DNA of 59,055 nt from Helicobacteraceae bacterium (GCA_013138865.1 WTBY01000007.1:1-59055), one strand, 5' to 3'. Positions 11,277 to 53,616 are shown, numbered from the stretch's first letter. Notes: generated by a model not told the origin, from the letters alone. Made by a program: numbers and translations.

Positions 11277-12509
11277 ATGAAATTTAAACTTTTTTTACTA
11301 ACTCTCCTTCTGCCTGTAATGCTCTTTGGAGCATTAACATTCGATACAAGCCATCAAAAAAGTATGGATGTTTTAGATGCTTTCGACATAGATTCCTCTT
11401 TCATAAATGACCCTGTTCTTATGAAATTACGTAAAACTAAGACGAAAAAGTACCAAAATAAGCGTTTCTTTCAGACTATGGATGAGGCATACTTATTTAT
11501 ACCTATGATTAAAAATATTGTTGCCGAATATGACGCACCACAAGAGTTACTATTTTTGGCTATGGCAGAGTCTAACTTCTCTACAAAAGCATACTCAGTA
11601 AAAAAAGCATCTGGACTATGGCAGTTCATGCCTTATACTGGAAAAGTTTATGGACTTAAAATTGATGCTTATGTTGATGAACGTCGTGATTTAGTTAAGT
11701 CTACTCGTGCAGCTATGAAATTTTTAACTCATTTACATAAAAGGTTTGGTAAGTGGTATTTAGCCGCGATCGCTTATAACTGTGGTGGTGGTAGACTCTC
11801 TAAAGCTATTAGAAGAGCTGGAACTGATGACTTAAAAGTTTTACTGGATCCTAGAAAAAAGTATTTACCTCGAGAGAGCCGTTTTTATATTAGAAAAATT
11901 ATAGCACTTTCACTTATGGCTACTGATGAGTCTTTAATGCTAAATAGTGAGTATGAGTATCTTTTGAATCGTGCAAATGCTTACTCAATATCTACAGTTA
12001 AGTTACCTCGTGGAGAAAAACTTAGTCGTGTAGCAAAACTTATAGGTATGCCTTATAAAGATCTTAAAAAGTTAAATAACCACTTGAAATATGATTTTAT
12101 GCCACCTTATGCTAAAAGTTATGATGTTTATATTCCTTATATAAAGCTCTCAGAGTTTAAGCAAAACTATAAGCCACTTTCGCTTGATAGTGTCTATCTT
12201 GTACATATCGTAACACGTGGTGACAACCTATCTTATTTAGGAAAAAAGTATGGTGTTGGTTATAAGATTATTAAAGATTTTAATAATTTAAAAACAAATA
12301 ACCTTGCTTTAAAGCAGAAGCTGATTATCCCAACAGTTAATAAAAAACAGAAAAGAAAATTTACTTATGACAAAGGTTTTTACACTGTAAAAAGTGGAGA
12401 TACTTTAGACTCTATTTCAAAAAAGTATAGAGTAAGTATAAAGTCTTTAAAAAGAAAGAACTCACTTAAGAGTGATATGATTAGAATTGGTACAAGGCTA
12501 AGCATATAA
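11277..12509 (+). CDS. MltD-like lytic transglycosylase with two LysM domains
   Basis: A secreted peptidoglycan lyase. The 410-aa sequence begins with a signal peptide (MKFKLFLLTLLLPVMLFGAL), followed by an SLT domain with catalytic E98 in LAMAESNF, then KKASGLWQFMPYTGK and AAIAYNCGGGRL. Two LysM modules follow: about 308-351 (VHIVTRGDNLSYLGKKYGV) and 366-410 (YTVKSGDTLDSISKKYRVSI), which bind glycan strands. There is no lipobox, unlike E. coli MltD. Its stop overlaps the rlpA start by one base. The same pair occurs in Campylobacter. Confidence 0.92.
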   Translation: MKFKLFLLTLLLPVMLFGALTFDTSHQKSMDVLDAFDIDSSFINDPVLMKLRKTKTKKYQNKRFFQTMDEAYLFIPMIKNIVAEYDAPQELLFLAMAESNFSTKAYSVKKASGLWQFMPYTGKVYGLKIDAYVDERRDLVKSTRAAMKFLTHLHKRFGKWYLAAIAYNCGGGRLSKAIRRAGTDDLKVLLDPRKKYLPRESRFYIRKIIALSLMATDESLMLNSEYEYLLNRANAYSISTVKLPRGEKLSRVAKLIGMPYKDLKKLNNHLKYDFMPPYAKSYDVYIPYIKLSEFKQNYKPLSLDSVYLVHIVTRGDNLSYLGKKYGVGYKIIKDFNNLKTNNLALKQKLIIPTVNKKQKRKFTYDKGFYTVKSGDTLDSISKKYRVSIKSLKRKNSLKSDMIRIGTRLSI

Positions 12510-13300
12510 TGAAACTTATAAATATACTGTTAGTTTTAGCTCTTGGACTTTTTATATCTGGTTGTAGTCGTAAAAGCATCCCTTACTATGGAAGTTCTTA
12601 CTCTTCAACTCATGGAAGTTATAAGTCACAACCAAACCCTAAAAAATACTCCCATCCAACAATGCGTCCTTATACTATTAGAGGAAAACGTTACCATCCA
12701 ACAGTTGTAAGTGTTGGAGAGACTTTTGATGGTGTAGCTTCTTGGTATGGACCTAACTTTCATGGTAAGTTAACATCTAACGGTGAGACTTATAATATGC
12801 ATGCAATGACAGCAGCACATAAAACTTTTCCTATGAATACAATTGTAAAAGTTACAAATAAGCGTAACGGAAAAAGCACAATTGTACGCATTAACGATCG
12901 TGGACCATTTGTTGACGATCGTATAATAGATATGAGTAAACTATCTGCTGGTAAGATTGATATGCGAGGACATGGAACTACAAATGTTCGTCTTGAAATA
13001 CTTGGCTTTGACTATAAAGGTAAAGATGCTCCTAGTAAAAAGAATATAGCTAAGTCTCCTAAGACTAAAGTGATTGGCTCTTTCTCTTTACAAATAGGCT
13101 CTTTTTCAAACTTTAGTGGAGCTCAACAGTTTCAACAAAAGCATGATCGTACTCAAGGCTATAGAACAGTTATAAAAGATGTTGATGTTAATGGCCAATC
13201 AATGTATAAAGTTTTAATACGCGGTTTTAAAAGTGATGATGAAGCAAGAGACTTCAAAAAAATTGGCTTATTTAAGCACTCATTTATAGTAAGGGATTAA
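12509..13300 (+). CDS. rlpA: RlpA-like lipoprotein (septal lytic transglycosylase family)
   Basis: The 263-aa lipoprotein has lipobox FISGC (C19), a double-psi beta-barrel domain at about 75-167 (GVASWYGPNFHGKLTSNGE; AAHKTFPMNT; INDRGPF) and a C-terminal SPOR domain at 191-263 (SFSLQIGSFSNFSGAQQF), which targets denuded glycan at division sites. In Pseudomonas the family cleaves naked glycan strands; enzymatic activity in this branch is not certain. It is coupled to the upstream transglycosylase and hisB follows after 2 nt. Confidence 0.9.
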   Translation: MKLINILLVLALGLFISGCSRKSIPYYGSSYSSTHGSYKSQPNPKKYSHPTMRPYTIRGKRYHPTVVSVGETFDGVASWYGPNFHGKLTSNGETYNMHAMTAAHKTFPMNTIVKVTNKRNGKSTIVRINDRGPFVDDRIIDMSKLSAGKIDMRGHGTTNVRLEILGFDYKGKDAPSKKNIAKSPKTKVIGSFSLQIGSFSNFSGAQQFQQKHDRTQGYRTVIKDVDVNGQSMYKVLIRGFKSDDEARDFKKIGLFKHSFIVRD

Positions 13301-13302
13301 AA

Positions 13303-13875
13303 ATGGTAGAGTTAAGTAGAAAAACAAAAGAGACAGATATTAAAATAAAATTAGCTATTAATTCTAGTGGAAAAAGTACTATTAAGAGTGGTGTTGGTTT
13401 TCTTGATCACATGTTAGAAAGTTTTTCTAAACACTCTCTTATAGATATTGATCTTAGTTGTGAGGGTGACACTCATATAGATGATCACCATAGTGTTGAA
13501 GATATCGCAATCACTTTAGGACAAGCTCTATCTAAAGCTATTTACCCAATAGAAAAAGTAGAACGCTTCGGTAGTGCAACTGTTGTTATGGATGAAGCAG
13601 CCGTTACAACTGACCTAGATCTTAGTAATAGACCTTTTTTAGTTTATGAGTGTGATATAGATGGAAAAGTTGGTGACTTTGATGTTGAGCTTGTTGAAGA
13701 GTTCTTTCGAGCATTAGCTTTTAACTCAGGTATAACAGCACATATAATTATGCAAAGAGGAAAAAATAAGCACCATATTATAGAAGCAGCATTTAAAAGC
13801 TTTGCGGTTGCTCTTAGGCGCTCTTTAACTAAGAATGATGCTTTAGGTATTCCTAGTACTAAAGGTGTTCTGTGA
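13303..13875 (+). CDS. hisB: Imidazoleglycerol-phosphate dehydratase
   Basis: Dehydrates imidazoleglycerol phosphate to imidazoleacetol phosphate in histidine synthesis. At 190 aa it is the monofunctional form without the histidinol-phosphatase domain. It shows the two metal-binding repeats: DDHHSVED at 60-67 and KHHIIEAAFKSF near the C-terminus, with VGFLDHML before them. It is inserted in an envelope operon between rlpA and kdsC; hisG is at 46.3 kb, so the pathway genes are scattered. Confidence 0.96.
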   Translation: MVELSRKTKETDIKIKLAINSSGKSTIKSGVGFLDHMLESFSKHSLIDIDLSCEGDTHIDDHHSVEDIAITLGQALSKAIYPIEKVERFGSATVVMDEAAVTTDLDLSNRPFLVYECDIDGKVGDFDVELVEEFFRALAFNSGITAHIIMQRGKNKHHIIEAAFKSFAVALRRSLTKNDALGIPSTKGVL

Positions 13876-14366
13876 TCGAACTTATAGTCCTTGATGTTGA
13901 TGGCTGTTTAAGTAATGGTCAAATAACTTATAGTGAAGATGAAGTTGAAATTAAGTCATTTAATGTAAAAGATGGTTTAGCTATTAGATCATGGGGACGA
14001 CTTGGGAAAAAAATAGCGATCATAACAGGTCGTGAGTCAAAAATAGTTGAGCGTCGTGCAGGTGAGCTAAAAGTTGACTTTATACACCAAGGTATAAGTG
14101 ACAAAGCAACACTACTAAATAATATCGTAGATGAGTTAGGTATAACTATGCAAAATGTAGCTGCGATCGGAGATGATATGAATGATTATAAAATGCTAAA
14201 AAGTGTTGGACTATCATTTACTCCAAATGATGGTTCTAAGCATATAAAAGAGATAGTTAACACTGTTTTAGAAACAAAAGGTGGAGATGGTGCCGTTCGT
14301 GAAATGATCGAATTACTTCTTAAAAGAGATAACCTAGAAGAGGAGTTTTTAGATCTGTGGCGTTAA
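13872..14366 (+). CDS. kdsC: 3-Deoxy-D-manno-octulosonate 8-phosphate phosphatase
   Basis: HAD phosphatase giving KDO from KDO-8-phosphate for lipid A inner core synthesis. The 164-aa protein has motif I DVDGCLSNG with D8 and D10, the cap-less core with IAIITGRESKIVERRAGEL, and motif IV AAIGDDMNDYKML. It starts with GTG overlapping the hisB stop by 4 nt, and lptC starts with GTG inside its last codons. Its grouping with lptC and lptA fits LPS assembly. Confidence 0.93.
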   Translation: MIELIVLDVDGCLSNGQITYSEDEVEIKSFNVKDGLAIRSWGRLGKKIAIITGRESKIVERRAGELKVDFIHQGISDKATLLNNIVDELGITMQNVAAIGDDMNDYKMLKSVGLSFTPNDGSKHIKEIVNTVLETKGGDGAVREMIELLLKRDNLEEEFLDLWR

Positions 14367-14875
14367 ATATAACTAGCTTTATCTCTTTTATTGGTGCGAT
14401 CCTTTTAGTGATTTTATACTCTTTTGATCCTATAAAAGTTTCATTTAAAGATTCAACAAACGTAGCTGAACTAGAGGTTTATAACTTTGTTATGTATGAG
14501 TTAAATAAAGAAGCACTACAAAGTGTCTCAGCAGGTCAGAGTGGTTCTAAATTTAATGATCGAGTAGAAGCAAAAAAAATTGATTTTACATCAAATGGCG
14601 ATGGTAATTTACAAAATATAGTAGCGGATAGAGCCGTTTATGACTATAAACTTTTAAAGTTAGAAAAAAATGTTAACTATATTAGAGAAGATGGAACTCT
14701 TTTTAACTCTGAAACTCTTTTTTATGATAAAAAAGAGAACTTAATATATACAAAGAGTGACTTTAGTAGTGAAAAAGGTAAAAATAGTGTTAATGGACTA
14801 AATTTAGCTTATAATATTAAAACAACTCAACTTACAGCTAAAAATATAGTAGCTAAATTTGATATTAAGGATTAA
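14357..14875 (+). CDS. lptC: LPS export ABC transporter periplasmic protein LptC
   Basis: A 172-aa protein with one N-terminal membrane helix (SFISFIGAILLVILYSF) and a beta-jellyroll periplasmic domain of LptC type (LQNIVADRAVYDYKLLKLEK; GTLFNSETLFYDKKENLIYT). It passes LPS from LptBFG to LptA. Sequence conservation in this family is low; the assignment relies on topology and on position between kdsC and lptA. GTG start, overlapping kdsC by 10 nt. Confidence 0.85.
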   Translation: MALNITSFISFIGAILLVILYSFDPIKVSFKDSTNVAELEVYNFVMYELNKEALQSVSAGQSGSKFNDRVEAKKIDFTSNGDGNLQNIVADRAVYDYKLLKLEKNVNYIREDGTLFNSETLFYDKKENLIYTKSDFSSEKGKNSVNGLNLAYNIKTTQLTAKNIVAKFDIKD

Positions 14876-14876
14876 A

Positions 14877-15338
14877 ATGAGAATTATTTTATTAAGCTGT
14901 CTATTTTTACTATCTTTTTTAAAAGCTTCTGAGTTAAATATAGTTTCAGACTCTTATAGTGGTAATCAGAAAAAAGGTGTTTCTAAATTTTCTGGTAATG
15001 TTAAAATTCAAAAAACAAAAGATAGACTAGAAGCACAAAGTGTTACAGTGTATACAGACGAAGCAAATAAACCTACAAAAATGGTAGCAACAGGTGATGT
15101 AACTTTTTTTGTTGTAGCTGAAAATAACTCAACTTTTAAAGGTATTGCACAACGAGTTGTTTACCTTCCAAATAAAAAAGAGTATAACTTCTTTGATGGT
15201 GTTGAGCTTTTTCAAGTTAATGAAAAAAAGACGATTAAAGGTGAGCATGTATGTGTAAATTTAACTACATCGCAAGCTACTGCAAAGGGTGATGATAAAG
15301 CACCAGTACGCATGAGTTTTGAAATAGATGAGAAGTAA
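14877..15338 (+). CDS. lptA: LPS transport periplasmic protein LptA
   Basis: I place the start at ATG 14877, one base after the lptC stop with AAGGA upstream; this gives a clean signal peptide (MRIILLSCLFLLSFLKASE) and 153 aa. An ATG 18 nt earlier is less likely. The mature part is an OstA-like beta-jellyroll (LNIVSDSYSGNQKKGVSKF; GNVKIQKTKDRLEAQSVTVY), forming the periplasmic bridge for LPS transport. Confidence 0.88.
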   Translation: MRIILLSCLFLLSFLKASELNIVSDSYSGNQKKGVSKFSGNVKIQKTKDRLEAQSVTVYTDEANKPTKMVATGDVTFFVVAENNSTFKGIAQRVVYLPNKKEYNFFDGVELFQVNEKKTIKGEHVCVNLTTSQATAKGDDKAPVRMSFEIDEK

Positions 15339-15349
15339 AAAGGTATAGC

Positions 15350-15967
15350 ATGGTAGACATAGTAGAAGCAAAATTTTTAACATCAGCACCAAATATAAAA
15401 TTATCTCCTGAAAATGAGTATCAAAATGAGGTAGTCTTTATGGCTAGATCAAATGTAGGTAAAAGTTCACTTTTAAACTCATTAACTAACCATAAAAATT
15501 TGGCTAAAGTATCAGCAACACCAGGTAAAACACGTCTTATAAACTACTTTGATGTAACTTTTTTAGATCGTGACAATGGTGCTAAAGATTATGCAAATTT
15601 TGTGGATCTTCCAGGTTTTGGTTATGCAAGGGTTTCTAAGAGTATTAAAAAAGATTGGGAAAAGAACTTAACTGACTTTATAGCGTTACGTAAAAATGTA
15701 AAAGTATTTGTCCATTTAGTGGACTGTAGACACCCCAACCTTGAGATCGATAACTCTGTTTCTAACTACTTACTAGAGTGTGCTAATGAGTCACAAGTTA
15801 TTTTAAGAGTCTTTACTAAAGTAGATAAGTTAAATCAAAAAGAGCAAGGAGCACTTCTACGTGACTACCCTGGTGCTATTATGATCTCTAACTCTAAAAA
15901 AAGAGGTATTGATAAGCTTCGTAACATTATTCATGACATTTTATTTGAAGACAATATAGACGAATGA
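15350..15967 (+). CDS. engB: Ribosome biogenesis GTPase YsxC/EngB
   Basis: Essential GTPase for large ribosomal subunit maturation. The 205-aa protein has G1 ARSNVGKSS at 32-40, the switch ATPGKTRLINYF, G3 DLPGFGYA and G4 TKVDKL, in the order expected for the TrmE-Era-EngA-YihA-Septin class. The next gene overlaps its stop by 4 nt (ATGA). Confidence 0.95.
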   Translation: MVDIVEAKFLTSAPNIKLSPENEYQNEVVFMARSNVGKSSLLNSLTNHKNLAKVSATPGKTRLINYFDVTFLDRDNGAKDYANFVDLPGFGYARVSKSIKKDWEKNLTDFIALRKNVKVFVHLVDCRHPNLEIDNSVSNYLLECANESQVILRVFTKVDKLNQKEQGALLRDYPGAIMISNSKKRGIDKLRNIIHDILFEDNIDE

Positions 15968-16425
15968 GTTTAACATATACAAAAGCAACTTTAAACGATA
16001 TTGAGCAGATGCAAAGTATGGTTGCAGACGCGATCGAAGAGGGAATAATACTACCACGTAGCAATAGTGAAGTAGCAACAAATATACGTTCATACACTCT
16101 ATGTTTTGATCACAATAAAATAGTAGGATATGTTGCTTTACACATTCATAATGAAAAACTAGCAGAGGTGCGTTCATTAGTTGTAAATGAAGAGTATAGA
16201 GGTAAAGAAATAGGTTCTAAACTTGTAAATATGCTATCACATGAGGCTGAGATATTAGGTATTAAAGAGATGCTCTCTTTAACATATAAGCAGAATTTTT
16301 TTGAGAGACTAGGTTTTAAAGAGATTCCCAAAGAGTTAATCCCAGATAATAAAATATGGGCTGACTGTATTAAATGTAAATTGTTCCCACAATGCAACGA
16401 AATATCACTTATCAAGACGTTGTAG
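15964..16425 (+). CDS. GNAT acetyltransferase, short ArgA-type N-acetylglutamate synthase
   Basis: A 153-aa GNAT protein. The acetyl-CoA loop reads VVNEEYRGKEIGSKLV, preceded by the LAEVRSLVV strand, and the C-terminus has WADCIKCKLFPQC, a Cys pattern seen in short ArgA-like enzymes of bacteria and archaea. These acetylate glutamate in arginine synthesis. The assignment is by pattern; another small-molecule acetyltransferase is possible. It sits in the same engB-mrdA interval and overlaps both neighbours. Confidence 0.65.
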   Translation: MSLTYTKATLNDIEQMQSMVADAIEEGIILPRSNSEVATNIRSYTLCFDHNKIVGYVALHIHNEKLAEVRSLVVNEEYRGKEIGSKLVNMLSHEAEILGIKEMLSLTYKQNFFERLGFKEIPKELIPDNKIWADCIKCKLFPQCNEISLIKTL

Positions 16426-16847
16426 AGTCGTTTTTTCTCTTTTTAGCATTTGTGCTATATGAGTCTTTAACAAGTATATATCTTCTACTTCCACCACTAT
16501 TTGCACTACTTTTTGTATATTTTGTTTATGCACTTGATCATAACGAGTATCCAAAACTTTTTCTAGTCTCTGTAATGCTGTTAGTGTTTGAAGCTGACAA
16601 AGACTACATTTTACTTAGTTCTATTATATATAGCTTTTTTGCTTATTTTTTTATTATTCCTAAAATAAGGCAATTTGTAAATTGTAGGTCTTGTTACTCT
16701 TTTATTTACTCTATTCTGGCATACTTTGGTTTTTGGATGTTTAATTCTGTTCTAGCCAAAGTTTTTTGGTTCTTACCTCCTGAATTAGACTGGTATATGC
16801 CCTACTATATTTTAGTAGAATTTTTAATTATAAGTGTGATTTTATGA
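16392..16847 (+). CDS. MreD-like integral membrane protein
   Basis: A 151-aa protein made of about five hydrophobic helices (FFLFLAFVLYESLTSIYLLL; LFALLFVYFVYAL; IIYSFFAYFFIIP). It lies immediately upstream of mrdA with a 4-nt overlap and at the position usually taken by mreD in rod-shape operons; Campylobacter has an equivalent membrane gene here. Sequence identity to MreD is not obvious by eye. It overlaps the acetyltransferase gene by 34 nt and has no clear ribosome site, suggesting coupled translation. Confidence 0.6.
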   Translation: MQRNITYQDVVESFFLFLAFVLYESLTSIYLLLPPLFALLFVYFVYALDHNEYPKLFLVSVMLLVFEADKDYILLSSIIYSFFAYFFIIPKIRQFVNCRSCYSFIYSILAYFGFWMFNSVLAKVFWFLPPELDWYMPYYILVEFLIISVIL

Positions 16848-18628
16848 GAATTAAGTTTATTATTTCACTATTTATTCTTGTATGGATCTCACTTCTTACA
16901 AGAATATTTTATCTTTCTATACAGTCAAATAACTATTATGAGCATCTTTCATCACAAAATAGTACAAAAGTAAAATTTATACCTCCAGTAAGGGGTGAAA
17001 TTTTAGATAGAAAACTAAGACCGATTGCTATTAATAAACTTGGATTTAAAATACAGTTAAAACCACATTTAAGGTCTAAGAAAAATCTACCTAAACTTTA
17101 TGAAGAGGTAGACAATATAGTAAGTTTAATTCCTACACTTCATAGAGAAAAACTCATAAAAACATATCTTAAAAAAGACAGCTACTATAACCACGAGTTC
17201 ATAGATGTAGTTGACTTTATAACGTATGAAGAGATTATGCCTGTTTATACAAAACTAAATTTAAGAGAAAACTTGAATATTATGTCAGCACCAAAACGTT
17301 ATTATCCTAACGCCGAATTAGCAACACATGTTATAGGTTATGTTGCGAAGGCAAACAAAGCTGATATTGAGAAAGATGATACTGTAAAGCTGATCGGTAA
17401 AGTTGGACGAACAGGTATTGAAAAGTATTATAATGACTTTTTACAAGGTGAAGCTGGGCAGAGAGTTTTAAAAGTTAGTGCAAAAAATGAACTCATAAAA
17501 GAGCTTAGTTATAAAGCACCTCTTGAAGATAGACAACTAGTATTAGGAATAGATATAGAGTTACAAAAGTATATAAGTAAACTCTTTAAAGGTAAAGTAG
17601 GTGCAGTTGTAGTTATGAATGTTGATGGAACTATTATTTCAGCAGGAAGTTTCCCTGAATATAATCCTAACCTTTTTGTCTCCGGAATATCTACGAAAGA
17701 TTGGAAAAAACTTATAAGTAATGTTGACAAACCATTTACAAATAAACTTATAAATGGACTTTATCCACCGGGATCTACTATTAAAACAGGCTTGGGACTA
17801 ATATATATCACTACGGATATAAATGAGTGGTGGAAAGTAAAATGTACTGCCTCTTTTGAACTTGGTGATCGTAATTTTCGTTGTTGGAAAGAGAAAGGTC
17901 ACCATGGAACTGATATAAATAAAGCTATACGTGAGAGTTGTGATGACTATTTTTATAAAGCTAGTGTTAAAGTTGGTATCGCAAAAATGAGTGAGGGACT
18001 TCGTCGTTTTGGACTTGGTAAAAAAACAGGAATAGACTTGCCTCGTGAGTTTGTGGGAACTGTTCCTAGTAGAATGTGGAAACGTGAGAAGTATAATCGT
18101 CCGTGGTATATAGGAGAGACCCTAAACTCTTCGATCGGTCAAGGTGATTCACTTAGTTCACCTATGCAAATAACACGTTTTACAGCTCTTATGGCAACTG
18201 GTAAGCTACCAACTCCACATATAGCAACAGAAATAGGTGGTCAAAAAGTAGAAGCTGTATATGAAGATATTTTAACACCTGAAGAGAAAAAAAAGTTACC
18301 ACTTATTCAAAAAGCTATGAAAGAAGTTTGTAACCATCCAAGAGGAACAGCTACACGTTATTTGTCATCCAAAGTTAAGATGGCAGGTAAAACAGGAACA
18401 GCTCAAGTTGTAGGGATTGCTCAAGATGTGAAGAAACGTCTAAAAGAGGACCAAATGGAGTATTACAAACGATCACACGCATGGTTTACAAGCTACGCAC
18501 CATATAATAACCCACAATACGTAGTAACAGTTCTAGTAGAACACGGTGGACATGGTGGTTCAGCAGCAGGTGCTATTACCTCTAAAATTTATAATAAGCT
18601 GTTAAAACTAGGGTATATAAAGAAATAG
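16844..18628 (+). CDS. mrdA: Penicillin-binding protein 2 (elongasome transpeptidase)
   Basis: Transpeptidase that crosslinks peptidoglycan in lateral wall growth. The 594-aa protein has an N-terminal membrane anchor, the PBP dimer domain (PPVRGEILDRKLRPIA at 47-62) and the transpeptidase domain with S311-TIK in PPGSTIK, S365-CD in RESCDDYFY and a late KTGTAQV box. Length is normal for PBP2. It closes the operon that began at 11277. Confidence 0.95.
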   Translation: MRIKFIISLFILVWISLLTRIFYLSIQSNNYYEHLSSQNSTKVKFIPPVRGEILDRKLRPIAINKLGFKIQLKPHLRSKKNLPKLYEEVDNIVSLIPTLHREKLIKTYLKKDSYYNHEFIDVVDFITYEEIMPVYTKLNLRENLNIMSAPKRYYPNAELATHVIGYVAKANKADIEKDDTVKLIGKVGRTGIEKYYNDFLQGEAGQRVLKVSAKNELIKELSYKAPLEDRQLVLGIDIELQKYISKLFKGKVGAVVVMNVDGTIISAGSFPEYNPNLFVSGISTKDWKKLISNVDKPFTNKLINGLYPPGSTIKTGLGLIYITTDINEWWKVKCTASFELGDRNFRCWKEKGHHGTDINKAIRESCDDYFYKASVKVGIAKMSEGLRRFGLGKKTGIDLPREFVGTVPSRMWKREKYNRPWYIGETLNSSIGQGDSLSSPMQITRFTALMATGKLPTPHIATEIGGQKVEAVYEDILTPEEKKKLPLIQKAMKEVCNHPRGTATRYLSSKVKMAGKTGTAQVVGIAQDVKKRLKEDQMEYYKRSHAWFTSYAPYNNPQYVVTVLVEHGGHGGSAAGAITSKIYNKLLKLGYIKK

Positions 18629-50293: not shown

Positions 50294-50370
50294 AGCTTTT
50301 CTGCTCTTCAGTTAATAGTATTCAAAAAGAATACTAAAAAGTATTTGACTCTCATATTTAACTTATAAAG

Positions 50371-50440
50371 ACAAATTTTATTTTGTCATTATGATTGACA
50401 AATTATTTTTTGTCTGTTATAATGACAAAATAAAATTTGT
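50371..50440 (+). promoter_or_regulatory. Consensus promoter inside a perfect 19-bp inverted repeat
   Basis: ACAAATTTTATTTTGTCAT (50371-50389) and its exact reverse complement (50422-50440) flank a 32-nt centre. That centre carries TTGACA (50395-50400), a 17-nt spacer and TATAAT (50418-50423), the textbook sigma70 promoter, rare in this phylum where -35 boxes are weak. Nested inside are further pairs, TTTGTCA with TGACAAA and TTTTGTC with GACAAAA. A transcript starting near 50430 would begin inside the right arm. The layout looks like a strongly repressed, strongly inducible promoter. Confidence 0.8.
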
Positions 50441-50453
50441 TAAAAGGTTTACT

Positions 50454-51611
50454 ATGGCATTTATTACTGGACAAGTTGTAAGAGATAAAAATTTTTGGAA
50501 TAGAAAACTTGAGTTAGAAGATATATGGGAAGCCATAAAAAATGGGGAACACTCTTTATTGGTTGCGCCTAGAAGAGTTGGCAAAACTTCTATAATGTAC
50601 AAAATTTTAGATGAACCAAAAGATAATTATATAGCACTATATATGGATAGTGAAGAGGATAATTTTGAACATCAGTTTTGGGCTAGGTTATTTAATTCTT
50701 TAAAAAAAGAAGAATTCACAAATAAGTTCAAGTCAAATATTACAAAATTTAAGGCTATAATTAAGGCTATAGATATTAAAAAAATATCACTTAGTGGTAT
50801 AGAATTTAAAGAGACTAAAGCTATTAATTATAAAGATGCTTTTGAAGAATTAATGAATAGTTTACCAAAAGAGCAGAAAGTTATCATTATGATTGATGAA
50901 TTTGCTCAAACTATTGAAAATATTATCAAATATGATAGTGAAGAGAATGCACTAAATCTTTTAAAAACTCATAGGGCAATAAGACAAGCCAACCAATCTA
51001 ACAATATAGTCTTTATATATGCAGGTTCTATAGGGCTTGAGAGTGTTGTAGCGAAGTTAGATGGTATGAAGCATATAAATGATTTAAAACCTATAAAAGT
51101 CTCTCCTTTAGAAATAGATGATGCTCATGATTTCATATCCCACTTACTTACACATAACAGCATTAAAGTAGATAAGATTCAAATAGATTATATGCTTGAT
51201 AAAATAGAGTGGCTAATACCTTTTTATATACAGCTTATTTTAGATGAAATAAAAAAATTAAGTAGAAAGAATCCTAATATTACTAATGATACTGTTGACA
51301 GTGCAATAGATAATGCACTTGAACATAAAAACTATTTTGATAACTGGAGAAGTAAAATAAAAGATGCTTTTAGTGATGAAGGCTATCTATTTTCAAAAGA
51401 GGTTTTAAATATTATTTCTGAGCATAAAACTATATCTAAAAATAATATAGCAAATATAGCTGATAAATATGGGGTTAGTGATGACGAAAAAAGAGAGACT
51501 TTACAATCTTTAGTTTATGATGGATATATCAATAATAGTAATGATATAAAAATATATAGATTTAACTCGCCTATACTAAGAATGTGGTGGTACAAATATG
51601 TCGCAAACTAA
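50454..51611 (+). CDS. P-loop ATPase with C-terminal winged helix (archaeal-ATPase type), partner A
   Basis: I place the start at ATG 50454 (AAAGG 7 nt upstream, 385 aa), because the longer frame from 50391 would read through the promoter. Walker A is APRRVGKTS at 38-46, Walker B VIIMIDEF at 143-150, followed by LLKTHRAIRQANQSNNIVFI and a sensor-like FIYAGSIGLESVV. The last 70 residues form a winged helix (ISKNNIANIADKYGVSDDEK) ending YRFNSPILRMWWYKYV, the style of ATPase_2/DUF234 proteins. No nuclease domain is visible. It overlaps the next ATPase gene by 14 nt. Very AT-rich, no CGATCG. Confidence 0.8.
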   Translation: MAFITGQVVRDKNFWNRKLELEDIWEAIKNGEHSLLVAPRRVGKTSIMYKILDEPKDNYIALYMDSEEDNFEHQFWARLFNSLKKEEFTNKFKSNITKFKAIIKAIDIKKISLSGIEFKETKAINYKDAFEELMNSLPKEQKVIIMIDEFAQTIENIIKYDSEENALNLLKTHRAIRQANQSNNIVFIYAGSIGLESVVAKLDGMKHINDLKPIKVSPLEIDDAHDFISHLLTHNSIKVDKIQIDYMLDKIEWLIPFYIQLILDEIKKLSRKNPNITNDTVDSAIDNALEHKNYFDNWRSKIKDAFSDEGYLFSKEVLNIISEHKTISKNNIANIADKYGVSDDEKRETLQSLVYDGYINNSNDIKIYRFNSPILRMWWYKYVAN

Positions 51612-53616
51612 TTATACAAGTTACAAATATAATCCAGATGAAATAAGTGAAAAAGATTTTTTAGAAAAATTTGTAATACGAAATGATATCTTTGAAGATA
51701 TCTTTGAAGATATAAAAAATGTTGATTTTAATGTGTCAAACCAGCACTATATAATAGTCGGACAAAGAGGACAAGGTAAAACTTCTCTTTTGAGAAGAGT
51801 AGCCATTGCTATAAAAGATGATAAAAAACTAGCTAAGTTTATGATACCTATAAAGTTTTCGGAAGAGCAGTATCAGATTCGTTCTTTATGTAGGTTTTTT
51901 GAAGTTATAGCAGAAGAGTTACAAGAAAATAGTAGTGAGATATTCCCAAATATTTTAGACGATATAGAAAGTCATATAGATGATGAAGATTATTATTTAA
52001 AATGTTTTGAGTATTTTGAAGATATGGTGCAAAGTCAAAATAAGAAACTAATTATATTGTCTGATAATATTGATGAACTGCTTGGGAAGCTAAAAGAAAC
52101 TGAACAAAGGCAACTAAGACAGATACTTATAACTTCTTCAACTATTAGGATTATTGGTGCATCTACAAAGATGATAGAACAACATTTTGATTATGCTAAG
52201 CCTTTTTATGAGTACTTTAAAATTTTAAAACTAGATGGTCTTGATTATGATGAAAGCATAAAATTTTTAAGGGTCATTGGAGATAAAGAACAAAATAAAA
52301 AGATAGAAAAAATTATCAAAAATTCTCCACAACGAATAGAAACACTAAGACAACTTACGGGTGGAGTGCCACGAACTTTAGTTATGCTATATGATATATT
52401 TATTAAAAATAATGAGACTGCTTTTGAAGACTTATTAAAAATACTTGATGATGTAACACTCTTGTATAAAGATAGAATGGATAATCTACCTGATATTTTA
52501 CAAGATATAGTACACAATATAGCTATGAATTGGGATGGAATAACCACAAAAGAGTTAGCAAAAAAAACGAGACTCGAGAGTAAGTCTGTATCATCACAAC
52601 TAAAACAACTTGAAAAGTACCATATTATAGAATTTGAAAGTATTGGTAAGAATAAGATATATAAGATAAAAGAGAGATTTTTCAATATTTGGTATCTAAT
52701 GAGGTTTGGTAGAAAAAAAGATAGAAATAGGGTGGAATGGTTAGTTAAATTTTTAACATCTTGGTATGATAAAGATGAACTTAATATAAAAGCAAAATCT
52801 TTTATAAACTCTATAAAAGATAGAACTTTAAATGAAAACTATGTGTATCATATGTGCGAGGGCTTAAGCTATGCAGGGCTTGACTTAGAGCTAGAGCACA
52901 CTATGAAAGAAAACACAAAAGAGTATTTTAGTAAAAAAAATTCAAGTTTAAAAGATGAATTAGCAAAGTCGGATATTGAAATATTAAAAGAAGCACTTAA
53001 CTTAAATGATAAGAAAAGAGTACTTGAGGCTATAAAATTACTAGAAGAATCACAAAAAAGTAGTCCTGCTATTATGTCTATTATGGCTTATTTATACCAT
53101 CAATTAAAAGAGTATGAAAAAGCAGAAGAGTATTATCTAAAAGCTATTGAAAGTGGAGATGGTGACGCTTTAAATAGTTTATCATGGTTCTATTTTGAAC
53201 AAACTAAAAATATAGATAAAGCAATAGAGTTAGTTAAACAAAGTTATAGGAATGAAAAAAGTTTTTATAATACATATATATTAGCAACTATGTTATTATG
53301 GAGTGAAGAGTTGGAAGAGAGTTATTCTAAGTTTATAGAGTGGCTAGAGTATGAGAATGCTTTGGAGTCTGAAAATGATATTATTTTATATTTAAATTTG
53401 CTTATATCTAAAGGACAACTATATAAAGCAAAAGAGTTTTTTGAGATTCCAAAATATCAACTCAAAGATAGGTATAAGCCTATATGGTATGCTTTGATGA
53501 CTTTGATGAAAAATGATTTTCCAAATGAGATAAAAAAGATGGGTAGTGAGTTGAAACAAAGTGTTAATGAAGTATTGGACGTAATTGAGTTATACAAAGA
53601 AAAGTATGCTATTTAA
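51598..53616 (+). CDS. P-loop ATPase with winged helix and TPR repeats, partner B
   Basis: A 672-aa STAND-like protein. Walker A is VGQRGQGKTS at 54-63; Walker B-like LIILSDNIDELLG at 151-163; an arginine-containing LTGGVPRTLVMLYDIF at 253-268 resembles a sensor-2/GxP segment. A winged helix follows at about 330-375 (TTKELAKKTRLESKSVSSQL), then FFNIWYLMRFGRKKDRNRV. From about 480 there are TPR-like repeats (IMAYLYHQLKEYEKAEEYYL, KAIESGDGDALNSLSWFYF). Such repeats usually bind a ligand or partner and control the ATPase. It is co-translated with partner A and convergent with glmS 17 nt away. Confidence 0.8.
   Translation: MSQTNYTSYKYNPDEISEKDFLEKFVIRNDIFEDIFEDIKNVDFNVSNQHYIIVGQRGQGKTSLLRRVAIAIKDDKKLAKFMIPIKFSEEQYQIRSLCRFFEVIAEELQENSSEIFPNILDDIESHIDDEDYYLKCFEYFEDMVQSQNKKLIILSDNIDELLGKLKETEQRQLRQILITSSTIRIIGASTKMIEQHFDYAKPFYEYFKILKLDGLDYDESIKFLRVIGDKEQNKKIEKIIKNSPQRIETLRQLTGGVPRTLVMLYDIFIKNNETAFEDLLKILDDVTLLYKDRMDNLPDILQDIVHNIAMNWDGITTKELAKKTRLESKSVSSQLKQLEKYHIIEFESIGKNKIYKIKERFFNIWYLMRFGRKKDRNRVEWLVKFLTSWYDKDELNIKAKSFINSIKDRTLNENYVYHMCEGLSYAGLDLELEHTMKENTKEYFSKKNSSLKDELAKSDIEILKEALNLNDKKRVLEAIKLLEESQKSSPAIMSIMAYLYHQLKEYEKAEEYYLKAIESGDGDALNSLSWFYFEQTKNIDKAIELVKQSYRNEKSFYNTYILATMLLWSEELEESYSKFIEWLEYENALESENDIILYLNLLISKGQLYKAKEFFEIPKYQLKDRYKPIWYALMTLMKNDFPNEIKKMGSELKQSVNEVLDVIELYKEKYAI

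Follow-up and report, generated by a model that had tools for sequence, protein, structure and literature searches.

The locus consists of two overlapping genes, here called A and B, which lie on the plus strand of a 59,055-nt stretch of DNA from a Helicobacteraceae bacterium (the window, meaning the whole stretch analysed). They are preceded by a predicted consensus promoter set within an array of three palindromic operators (Table 1). The start of gene A was set by homology, the mechanical ORF start at 50391 falling inside the operators, and the two reading frames overlap by 14 nt.

Table 1. Features of the A-B locus, in nucleotide positions of the window.
Feature	Position	Strand	Description and basis
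Operator O1, AGACAAATTTTATTTTGTCA	50369..50388	.	20-bp palindrome, AGACAA-N8-TTGTCA
Operator O2, TGACAAATTATTTTTTGTCT	50396..50415	.	TGACAA-N8-TTGTCT; contains most of the -35 box
Operator O3, TGACAAAATAAAATTTGTTA	50423..50442	.	TGACAA-N8-TTGTTA; starts at the last -10 base
Predicted sigma-70 consensus promoter, inside O2/O3	50395..50423	+	TTGACA 50395-50400, 17-bp spacer, TATAAT 50418-50423; sequence reading
Perfect inverted 22-bp arms	50371..50440	.	50371-50392 / 50419-50440; outer parts of the three-operator array
Likely ribosome-binding site	50443..50448	+	AAAAGG context, inferred from sequence; start codon at 50454
Gene A	50454..51611	+	385 aa; ATPase_2 (PF01637) NTPase and C-terminal winged helix; Pfam, AlphaFold, Foldseek
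Gene B	51598..53616	+	672 aa; STAND/ORC-like NTPase; Pfam, AlphaFold, Foldseek
Regions of B			approximate, in aa: NTPase 1-270, winged helix 287-370, TPR 380-585, C-terminal cap 585-672

Two NTPase genes and their predicted promoter

A sequence-only reading of this DNA had described the genes as encoding two different P-loop ATPases, which was confirmed by Pfam and by structure models. A matches the ATPase_2 family with 39.8 bits, above the gathering cut-off of 33.2; the score of B against the same model (30.3 bits) is below it. B matches the NACHT model PF05729 (E 1.9e-8) with 34.8 bits, above the cut-off of 26.7, and gives weak matches to TPR, MarR and HTH_24 models. AlphaFold models of A and B reached pLDDT values of 89.7 and 87.8, respectively. 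In Foldseek searches the nearest structures to the A model were the archaeal ATPases SSO1545/PABY2304 (2fna, E 9.2e-14; 2qen, E 1.5e-12), and those to the B model were Orc1/Cdc6, with Apaf-1 and Avs3 more distant. The C-terminal part of B is modelled as helical repeats following the winged helix. The winged helix assigned to A in the earlier reading is present, but its supposed DUF234 character found no match. The winged helix and TPR-like repeats assigned to B are upheld in outline by Pfam, AlphaFold and Foldseek. The naming of B as a STAND-type ATPase with TPRs agrees with its NACHT match, its TPR region and its likeness to Apaf-1 and Avs3.

No effector domain was found in A or B, either by Pfam or in the confident AlphaFold models. 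This bears out the earlier impression that none is visible, and the models of both proteins led us to reject a hidden effector in either. A matched no toxin family in Pfam, NCBIfam or PADLOC, and neither protein had a family-level match in NCBIfam, PADLOC or PHROGs, the PADLOC matches being weak and partial (best 5.6e-6). As had been claimed, the pair falls outside described systems as far as these collections reach, no PADLOC, NCBIfam or PHROGs family describing it; nor was a published description found in the full-text open-access literature, with preprints outside the scope of the search.

The three operators follow the pattern TGACAA-N8-TTGTCA, with one mismatch in each, and are placed 27 bp apart, start to start, from O1 to O2 and again from O2 to O3. 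As a consequence of this distance, successive half-sites point in opposite directions and follow one another at 14 and 13 bp in turn. The -35 box serves as a half-site of the middle operator, overlapping the left half-site of O2, and the array extends over the predicted start region as well. The perfect TTGACA-17-TATAAT promoter announced in the earlier reading is indeed present in the sequence. The 19-bp inverted repeat said to surround it is real, with perfect arms that are longer (22 bp, with a loop of 26 bp between them, and reaching 32 nt at 91% match), but it is actually part of the three-operator array, and the smaller nested repeats resolve into the three 20-bp palindromes. Palindromes lying over a strong predicted promoter support the suggested layout of an inducible unit.

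The pair has a GC content of 27.4% compared with 31.6% for the window and contains zero copies of CGATCG. Both properties had been noted before and both are true, but the signal is weak: 4% of segments of the same size are equally AT-rich, and the window holds three CGATCG-free gaps longer than that of the pair. Relatives of the neighbouring channel gene in the family are just 32-39% identical, which left no clean empty site for comparison.

Conservation and spread of the pair

Among 397 sampled Campylobacterota genomes, homologues of B (at least 54% identity) and of A (more than 50%) were found in the same five; in one of these the two genes are on separate contigs, and the surroundings of the pair differ among the five. 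Genome contigs were also searched with an alignment of B, by which at least 349 relatives were confirmed and the best 80 kept. These best 80 belong to Campylobacterota, Gammaproteobacteria, Desulfobacterota, KSB1, Cloacimonadota, Bacteroidota and others, and include a Clostridium and a Fusobacteriaceae MAG. Many of the B relatives are MAG contigs with unverified binning; isolates are also present, namely Pseudoalteromonas, Catenovulum, Clostridium tagluense, Chitinophaga and Thiorhodococcus. At nearly all loci of the best 80 that are uncut by a contig end, A lies directly upstream of B, and the overlap between the two genes is 14 nt in 44 of the 60 loci measured. The sequence-only reading had counted rare joint occurrence of the homologues as an argument against its interpretation; the pair was instead found to co-occur across phyla.

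B of the window shares 55% identity with its Pseudoalteromonas homologue, as much as with relatives within the phylum, and this equality of cross-phylum and within-phylum identity suggests horizontal transfer. All-against-all comparison of the neighbours revealed no third recurring gene beside the pair, by which a hidden third gene was ruled out. A phage origin was likewise rejected: no B relatives were found in annotated phages, and viral contigs contained neither relatives of A or B nor an exact tandem operator.

Conservation of the operators and their candidate binder

Operators were scored by one rule throughout, with 550 control upstream regions taken from the same loci. Of the regions upstream of A, 56 of 62 scored at least 22, the 99th percentile of the controls, which is well beyond chance, and the exact 27-bp centre spacing is present in the great majority of them. 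High-scoring control promoters in locus L086 were dismissed as AT-rich sequence lacking the motif. A tandem site with up to three mismatches occurs in 14 of the 397 phylum genomes and in 0 of 397 for the reversed-pattern control. Some of the three-mismatch matches in these genomes are probably due to chance. At loci L066-L165, the tandem sites with up to four mismatches lie ahead of A genes, both intact and broken ones, and of a gene of genome G044 described below. Looser single sites elsewhere, six in five genomes, are inside genes or not tandem, on which ground further operator targets in these genomes were ruled out. The operator matches of G361 and G234 are followed by no intact gene and are apparent scars or relics.

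The half-site itself is variable. Moraxella plasmids carry the same array layout with a different half-site, TAACTATA; L144 and L145 have TTGCAA-type half-sites; and alphaproteobacterial homologues of B alone are preceded by TGCCAA-type palindromes which, read by eye, follow no 27-bp register. With NTPase distance controlled, operator distance correlated with winged-helix distance for both A (partial r 0.29, permutation p 0.007) and B (partial r 0.26, permutation p 0.010), and the NTPase parts of A and B gave no significant correlation in the same test, which removes ancestry in part and leaves A and B unseparated. This covariation favours a binder encoded at the locus.

Between the two proteins, B is preferred as the binder because operator-like palindromes persist at some loci without A: they lie upstream of B in L087 and L119 and, in the TGCCAA type, upstream of B homologues on Agrobacterium and Sphingobium plasmids. 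Another B-only locus, L125, showed no obvious operator upstream. At loci without A the second site at 27-bp spacing is absent or decayed, and from these few cases the tandem array may need A. DNA binding by B is expected from the likeness of its modelled NTPase and winged helix to ORC/Cdc6; the ORC-like NLR Rx1 of potato has been reported to bind DNA (PMC4599002). B is the likely repressor of its own promoter and autoregulation of the module is likely, although the tandem operators of genomes without B, described next, speak in part against simple autoregulation.

The alternative that survives best, though we consider it doubtful, is that a trans-acting host regulator binds the operators and controls several NTPase/TPR cassettes, this module among them. 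Three genomes in which no B NTPase or winged helix is recognisable (G044, G337 and G390) have intact tandem operators; there a profile of B gave matches at the TPR level and no more than one weak match in the NTPase range (G044, E 0.04). In G044 and G337 the gene behind the operators encodes a membrane-anchored coiled-coil TPR protein, in G390 a KAP NTPase. G044 and G337 agree in all 40 bases of the operators but have diverged in the signal-peptide region nearby, so a protein other than B may bind there. However, the gene of G044 is 56% identical to the TPR-cap portion of B, and in the KAP promoter the second palindrome equals O2 of the window in 20 of 20 bases, so that A-B loci may be the source from which all three cassettes captured their promoters. 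Moreover, most genomes that possess the tandem site have it at one place, which would leave such a regulator a single target; operator sequence and the A and B winged helices change together; and a dedicated host factor with one target is unlikely to be conserved over many phyla.

Possible function and comparison with known systems

Close homologues of B are 78% identical in the winged helix, 65% in the NTPase, 56% in the cap and 21% in the TPR region, and the length of B among relatives varies between about 500 and 946 aa. A hypervariable TPR region beside conserved remaining regions suits a changing ligand, and the pattern suits B as a sensor acting through its TPR region and conserved cap.

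Genomic context gave a divided answer on defence. Plasmid copies in Moraxella osloensis adjoin Qat genes, a CARF/PRTase-CE/ORC-like cluster or an Avs4-like gene; the alphaproteobacterial B-only homologues adjoin Pycsar, E1-E2 and AbiE genes; and the KAP NTPase of G390 matches PDC-S20 at 1.2e-96. Chromosomal A-B copies are often located among housekeeping genes. Among the PADLOC matches listed, up to 25 families, a handful of defence type fell within 222 neighbour genes, a rate similar to that in 111 control genes, which come from Campylobacterota only; several matches in both sets are generic helicases or methylases. A defence-island location, which the earlier reading had proposed to test, is therefore unsupported as a general statement, neighbour matches being near background and the defence context limited to plasmid-borne homologues. 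With the plasmid contexts positive and the chromosomal neighbours near background, a defence role is no more than plausible.

Next among the alternatives, and in our judgement unlikely, is a toxin-antitoxin-like addiction module with A as the toxin and B as antitoxin and autorepressor. The translational overlap of the two genes and the tandem operators over their own promoter are laid out in toxin-antitoxin style, and A is broken or internally deleted with B still open in L068, L069, L132 and L137, as happens with toxins. The contig search used B as query, however, and is thereby biased: A-only loci outside the phylum would go unseen, and the reverse case of a broken B could be missed. A has no recognisable toxin domain, and B is far larger than antitoxins, its hypervariable TPR region suggesting ligand sensing. 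The reading of the module as an ordinary metabolic or stress regulator, without a conflict role, agrees with the housekeeping surroundings of many chromosomal copies and with neighbours not clearly enriched in defence genes, but it is very improbable given that the genomes examined hold no other convincing target site, that occurrence is patchy (5 of 397 genomes) and at a new location each time, with plasmid copies and apparent relic sites, and that B is as similar across phyla as within one; an accessory conflict module fits better with this patchiness, mobility, plasmid carriage and decay.

The explanation we put forward, and to which we would give an even chance, is that A and B form a self-contained, self-repressing STAND NTPase module of two genes. 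In the resting cell B, possibly together with A, would sit on the operators through its MarR-like winged helix and hold the promoter off. A trigger would be sensed by the hypervariable TPR region and the conserved cap, and nucleotide exchange or oligomerisation would then remove B from the DNA, allowing the freed consensus promoter to fire a burst of both proteins. A, the usual partner, would be the likelier executor, given that no effector domain was recognised in B and that it is A which turns up broken or missing where B remains open. The role would most likely be protection against phages or other mobile elements, with toxin-antitoxin-like addiction as the next candidate.

More tentatively, and as a possibility of lower probability, we suggest that a STAND receptor acts here as its own transcription factor and that the operator cassette has been exchanged among modules, including the PDC-S20 KAP NTPase and the membrane-anchored TPR protein. 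An ORC-like receptor would rest on the array of half-sites, spaced alternately by about 13 and 14 bp, and leave once its repeat domain meets the trigger. If this is true, hundreds of bacterial genomes hold an unannotated two-gene alarm whose NLR/STAND receptor also represses its own gene, so that a single protein both senses and controls transcription. The operator, being conserved, would also be a handle for finding members that lack protein similarity, as with the KAP NTPase and the membrane TPR protein, and makes the silencing of STAND defence genes directly testable.

Several known systems resemble parts of the module. SSO1545/PABY2304 (ATPase_2) share with A the fold and the order of an NTPase followed by a C-terminal winged helix; what sets A apart is its link to B, with which it shares an operator array and, as a conserved feature, an overlap of 14 nt. 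ORC/Cdc6 initiators are the best fold matches of the B NTPase and winged helix, but B belongs to a bacterial accessory locus with palindromes at its own promoter instead of at an origin. A weak likeness at the NTPase level to MADS Mad8/PDC-S01 of PADLOC is a partial, low-scoring match (E about 1e-5), and the operon composition differs from that of A-B.

Palindromes at the operon promoter and autoregulation are also features of the WYL repressors BrxR/CapW and of type II toxin-antitoxin systems, BrxR being an autoregulated repressor at the promoter of a defence operon (PMC9122601). The A-B pair shares overlapping genes and palindromes over its own promoter with the type II systems. In those cases a small DNA-binding protein is dedicated to repression, whereas the sole candidates encoded at the present locus are the NTPases. 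LypABC of Caulobacter is CARD-NLR-like, toxic when overproduced and in need of tight repression, which is provided by CdxB (PMC13236601); unlike the A-B module, it contains peptidase domains and is repressed by a separate HTH protein.

The closest comparison for B is with bNACHT and Avs proteins, which likewise have a NACHT/AP-ATPase-like NTPase followed by helical repeats, in line with the Foldseek matches to Apaf-1 and Avs3. B has the central NACHT-type STAND NTPase of bNACHT proteins. As for an N-terminal effector or a C-terminal module such as SNaCT or NCH1, a general Pfam search gave B no effector match and its model shows no extra domain; some bNACHT clades are themselves without effectors (PMC12169576). 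B differs from these proteins in showing no recognised effector domain, in having a winged helix between the NTPase and the repeats, in belonging to a two-gene unit and in the operators at its own promoter. By analogy, B would work like a STAND receptor and, if bound to the operators, also like an autorepressor. The module thus appears to be a variant of the STAND kind, undescribed in the open-access literature, which is set apart by the gene pair and by the operators at its own promoter.

Putative tandem operators in other genomes

The putative tandem operators of the A-B pair (two palindromes in 27-bp register; A, the ATPase_2 winged-helix gene; B, the STAND/ORC-like NTPase gene) also precede other genes. 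Two encode membrane-anchored coiled-coil TPR proteins; in the G044 protein, the TPR and cap regions are shared with B (56% identity). A third encodes a KAP NTPase matching PDC-S20 (E 1.2e-96), with putative operators nearly the same in sequence as the window's O1-O2. Tandem operators that lack an intact gene downstream, in G361 and G234, are apparent scars left by a lost cassette. A further tandem operator-like site in G390 may be a HigA operator or a chance occurrence.

Features related to the A-B pair or its putative operators
Feature	Genome	Position	Remark
TPR protein gene	G044	L045:9255-10871	same putative operators as A-B upstream
TPR protein gene	G337	L182:7796-8875	same putative operators as A-B upstream
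KAP NTPase gene	G390	L184:9095-10588	putative operators upstream
Tandem operators (putative)	G361	L185:8538-8584	no intact gene downstream
Tandem operators (putative)	G234	L186:1191-1237	no intact gene downstream
Operator-like site	G390	L183:8925-8971	57 bp from HigBA-like toxin-antitoxin pair
Distant A paralogue	G000	C14:32068-32880 (L046:10063-11199)	solitary, without B
A-B plasmid regions	Moraxella osloensis	L035:227-6028, 12376-17899; L040:7122-14010

Short-motif composition of the window

Across the whole window, CGATCG is over-represented about 8.6-fold (37 observed versus 4.3 expected from base composition); CCGG (4 versus 37) and GAATTC (5 versus 20) are depleted.

Decayed, paralogous and plasmid-borne copies

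Both A and B are split into several frames at two loci (L067 and L086), and thus the module is subject to decay. Elsewhere in the window's own genome, the A paralogue shares 27% identity with A. On Moraxella osloensis plasmids, one arrangement has the pair flanked by Qat genes and a dUTPase/PRTase-CE/ORC-CDC6-like/CARF/N6-methylase cluster; in the other, an Avs4-like gene follows the pair, overlapping B by 17 nt.
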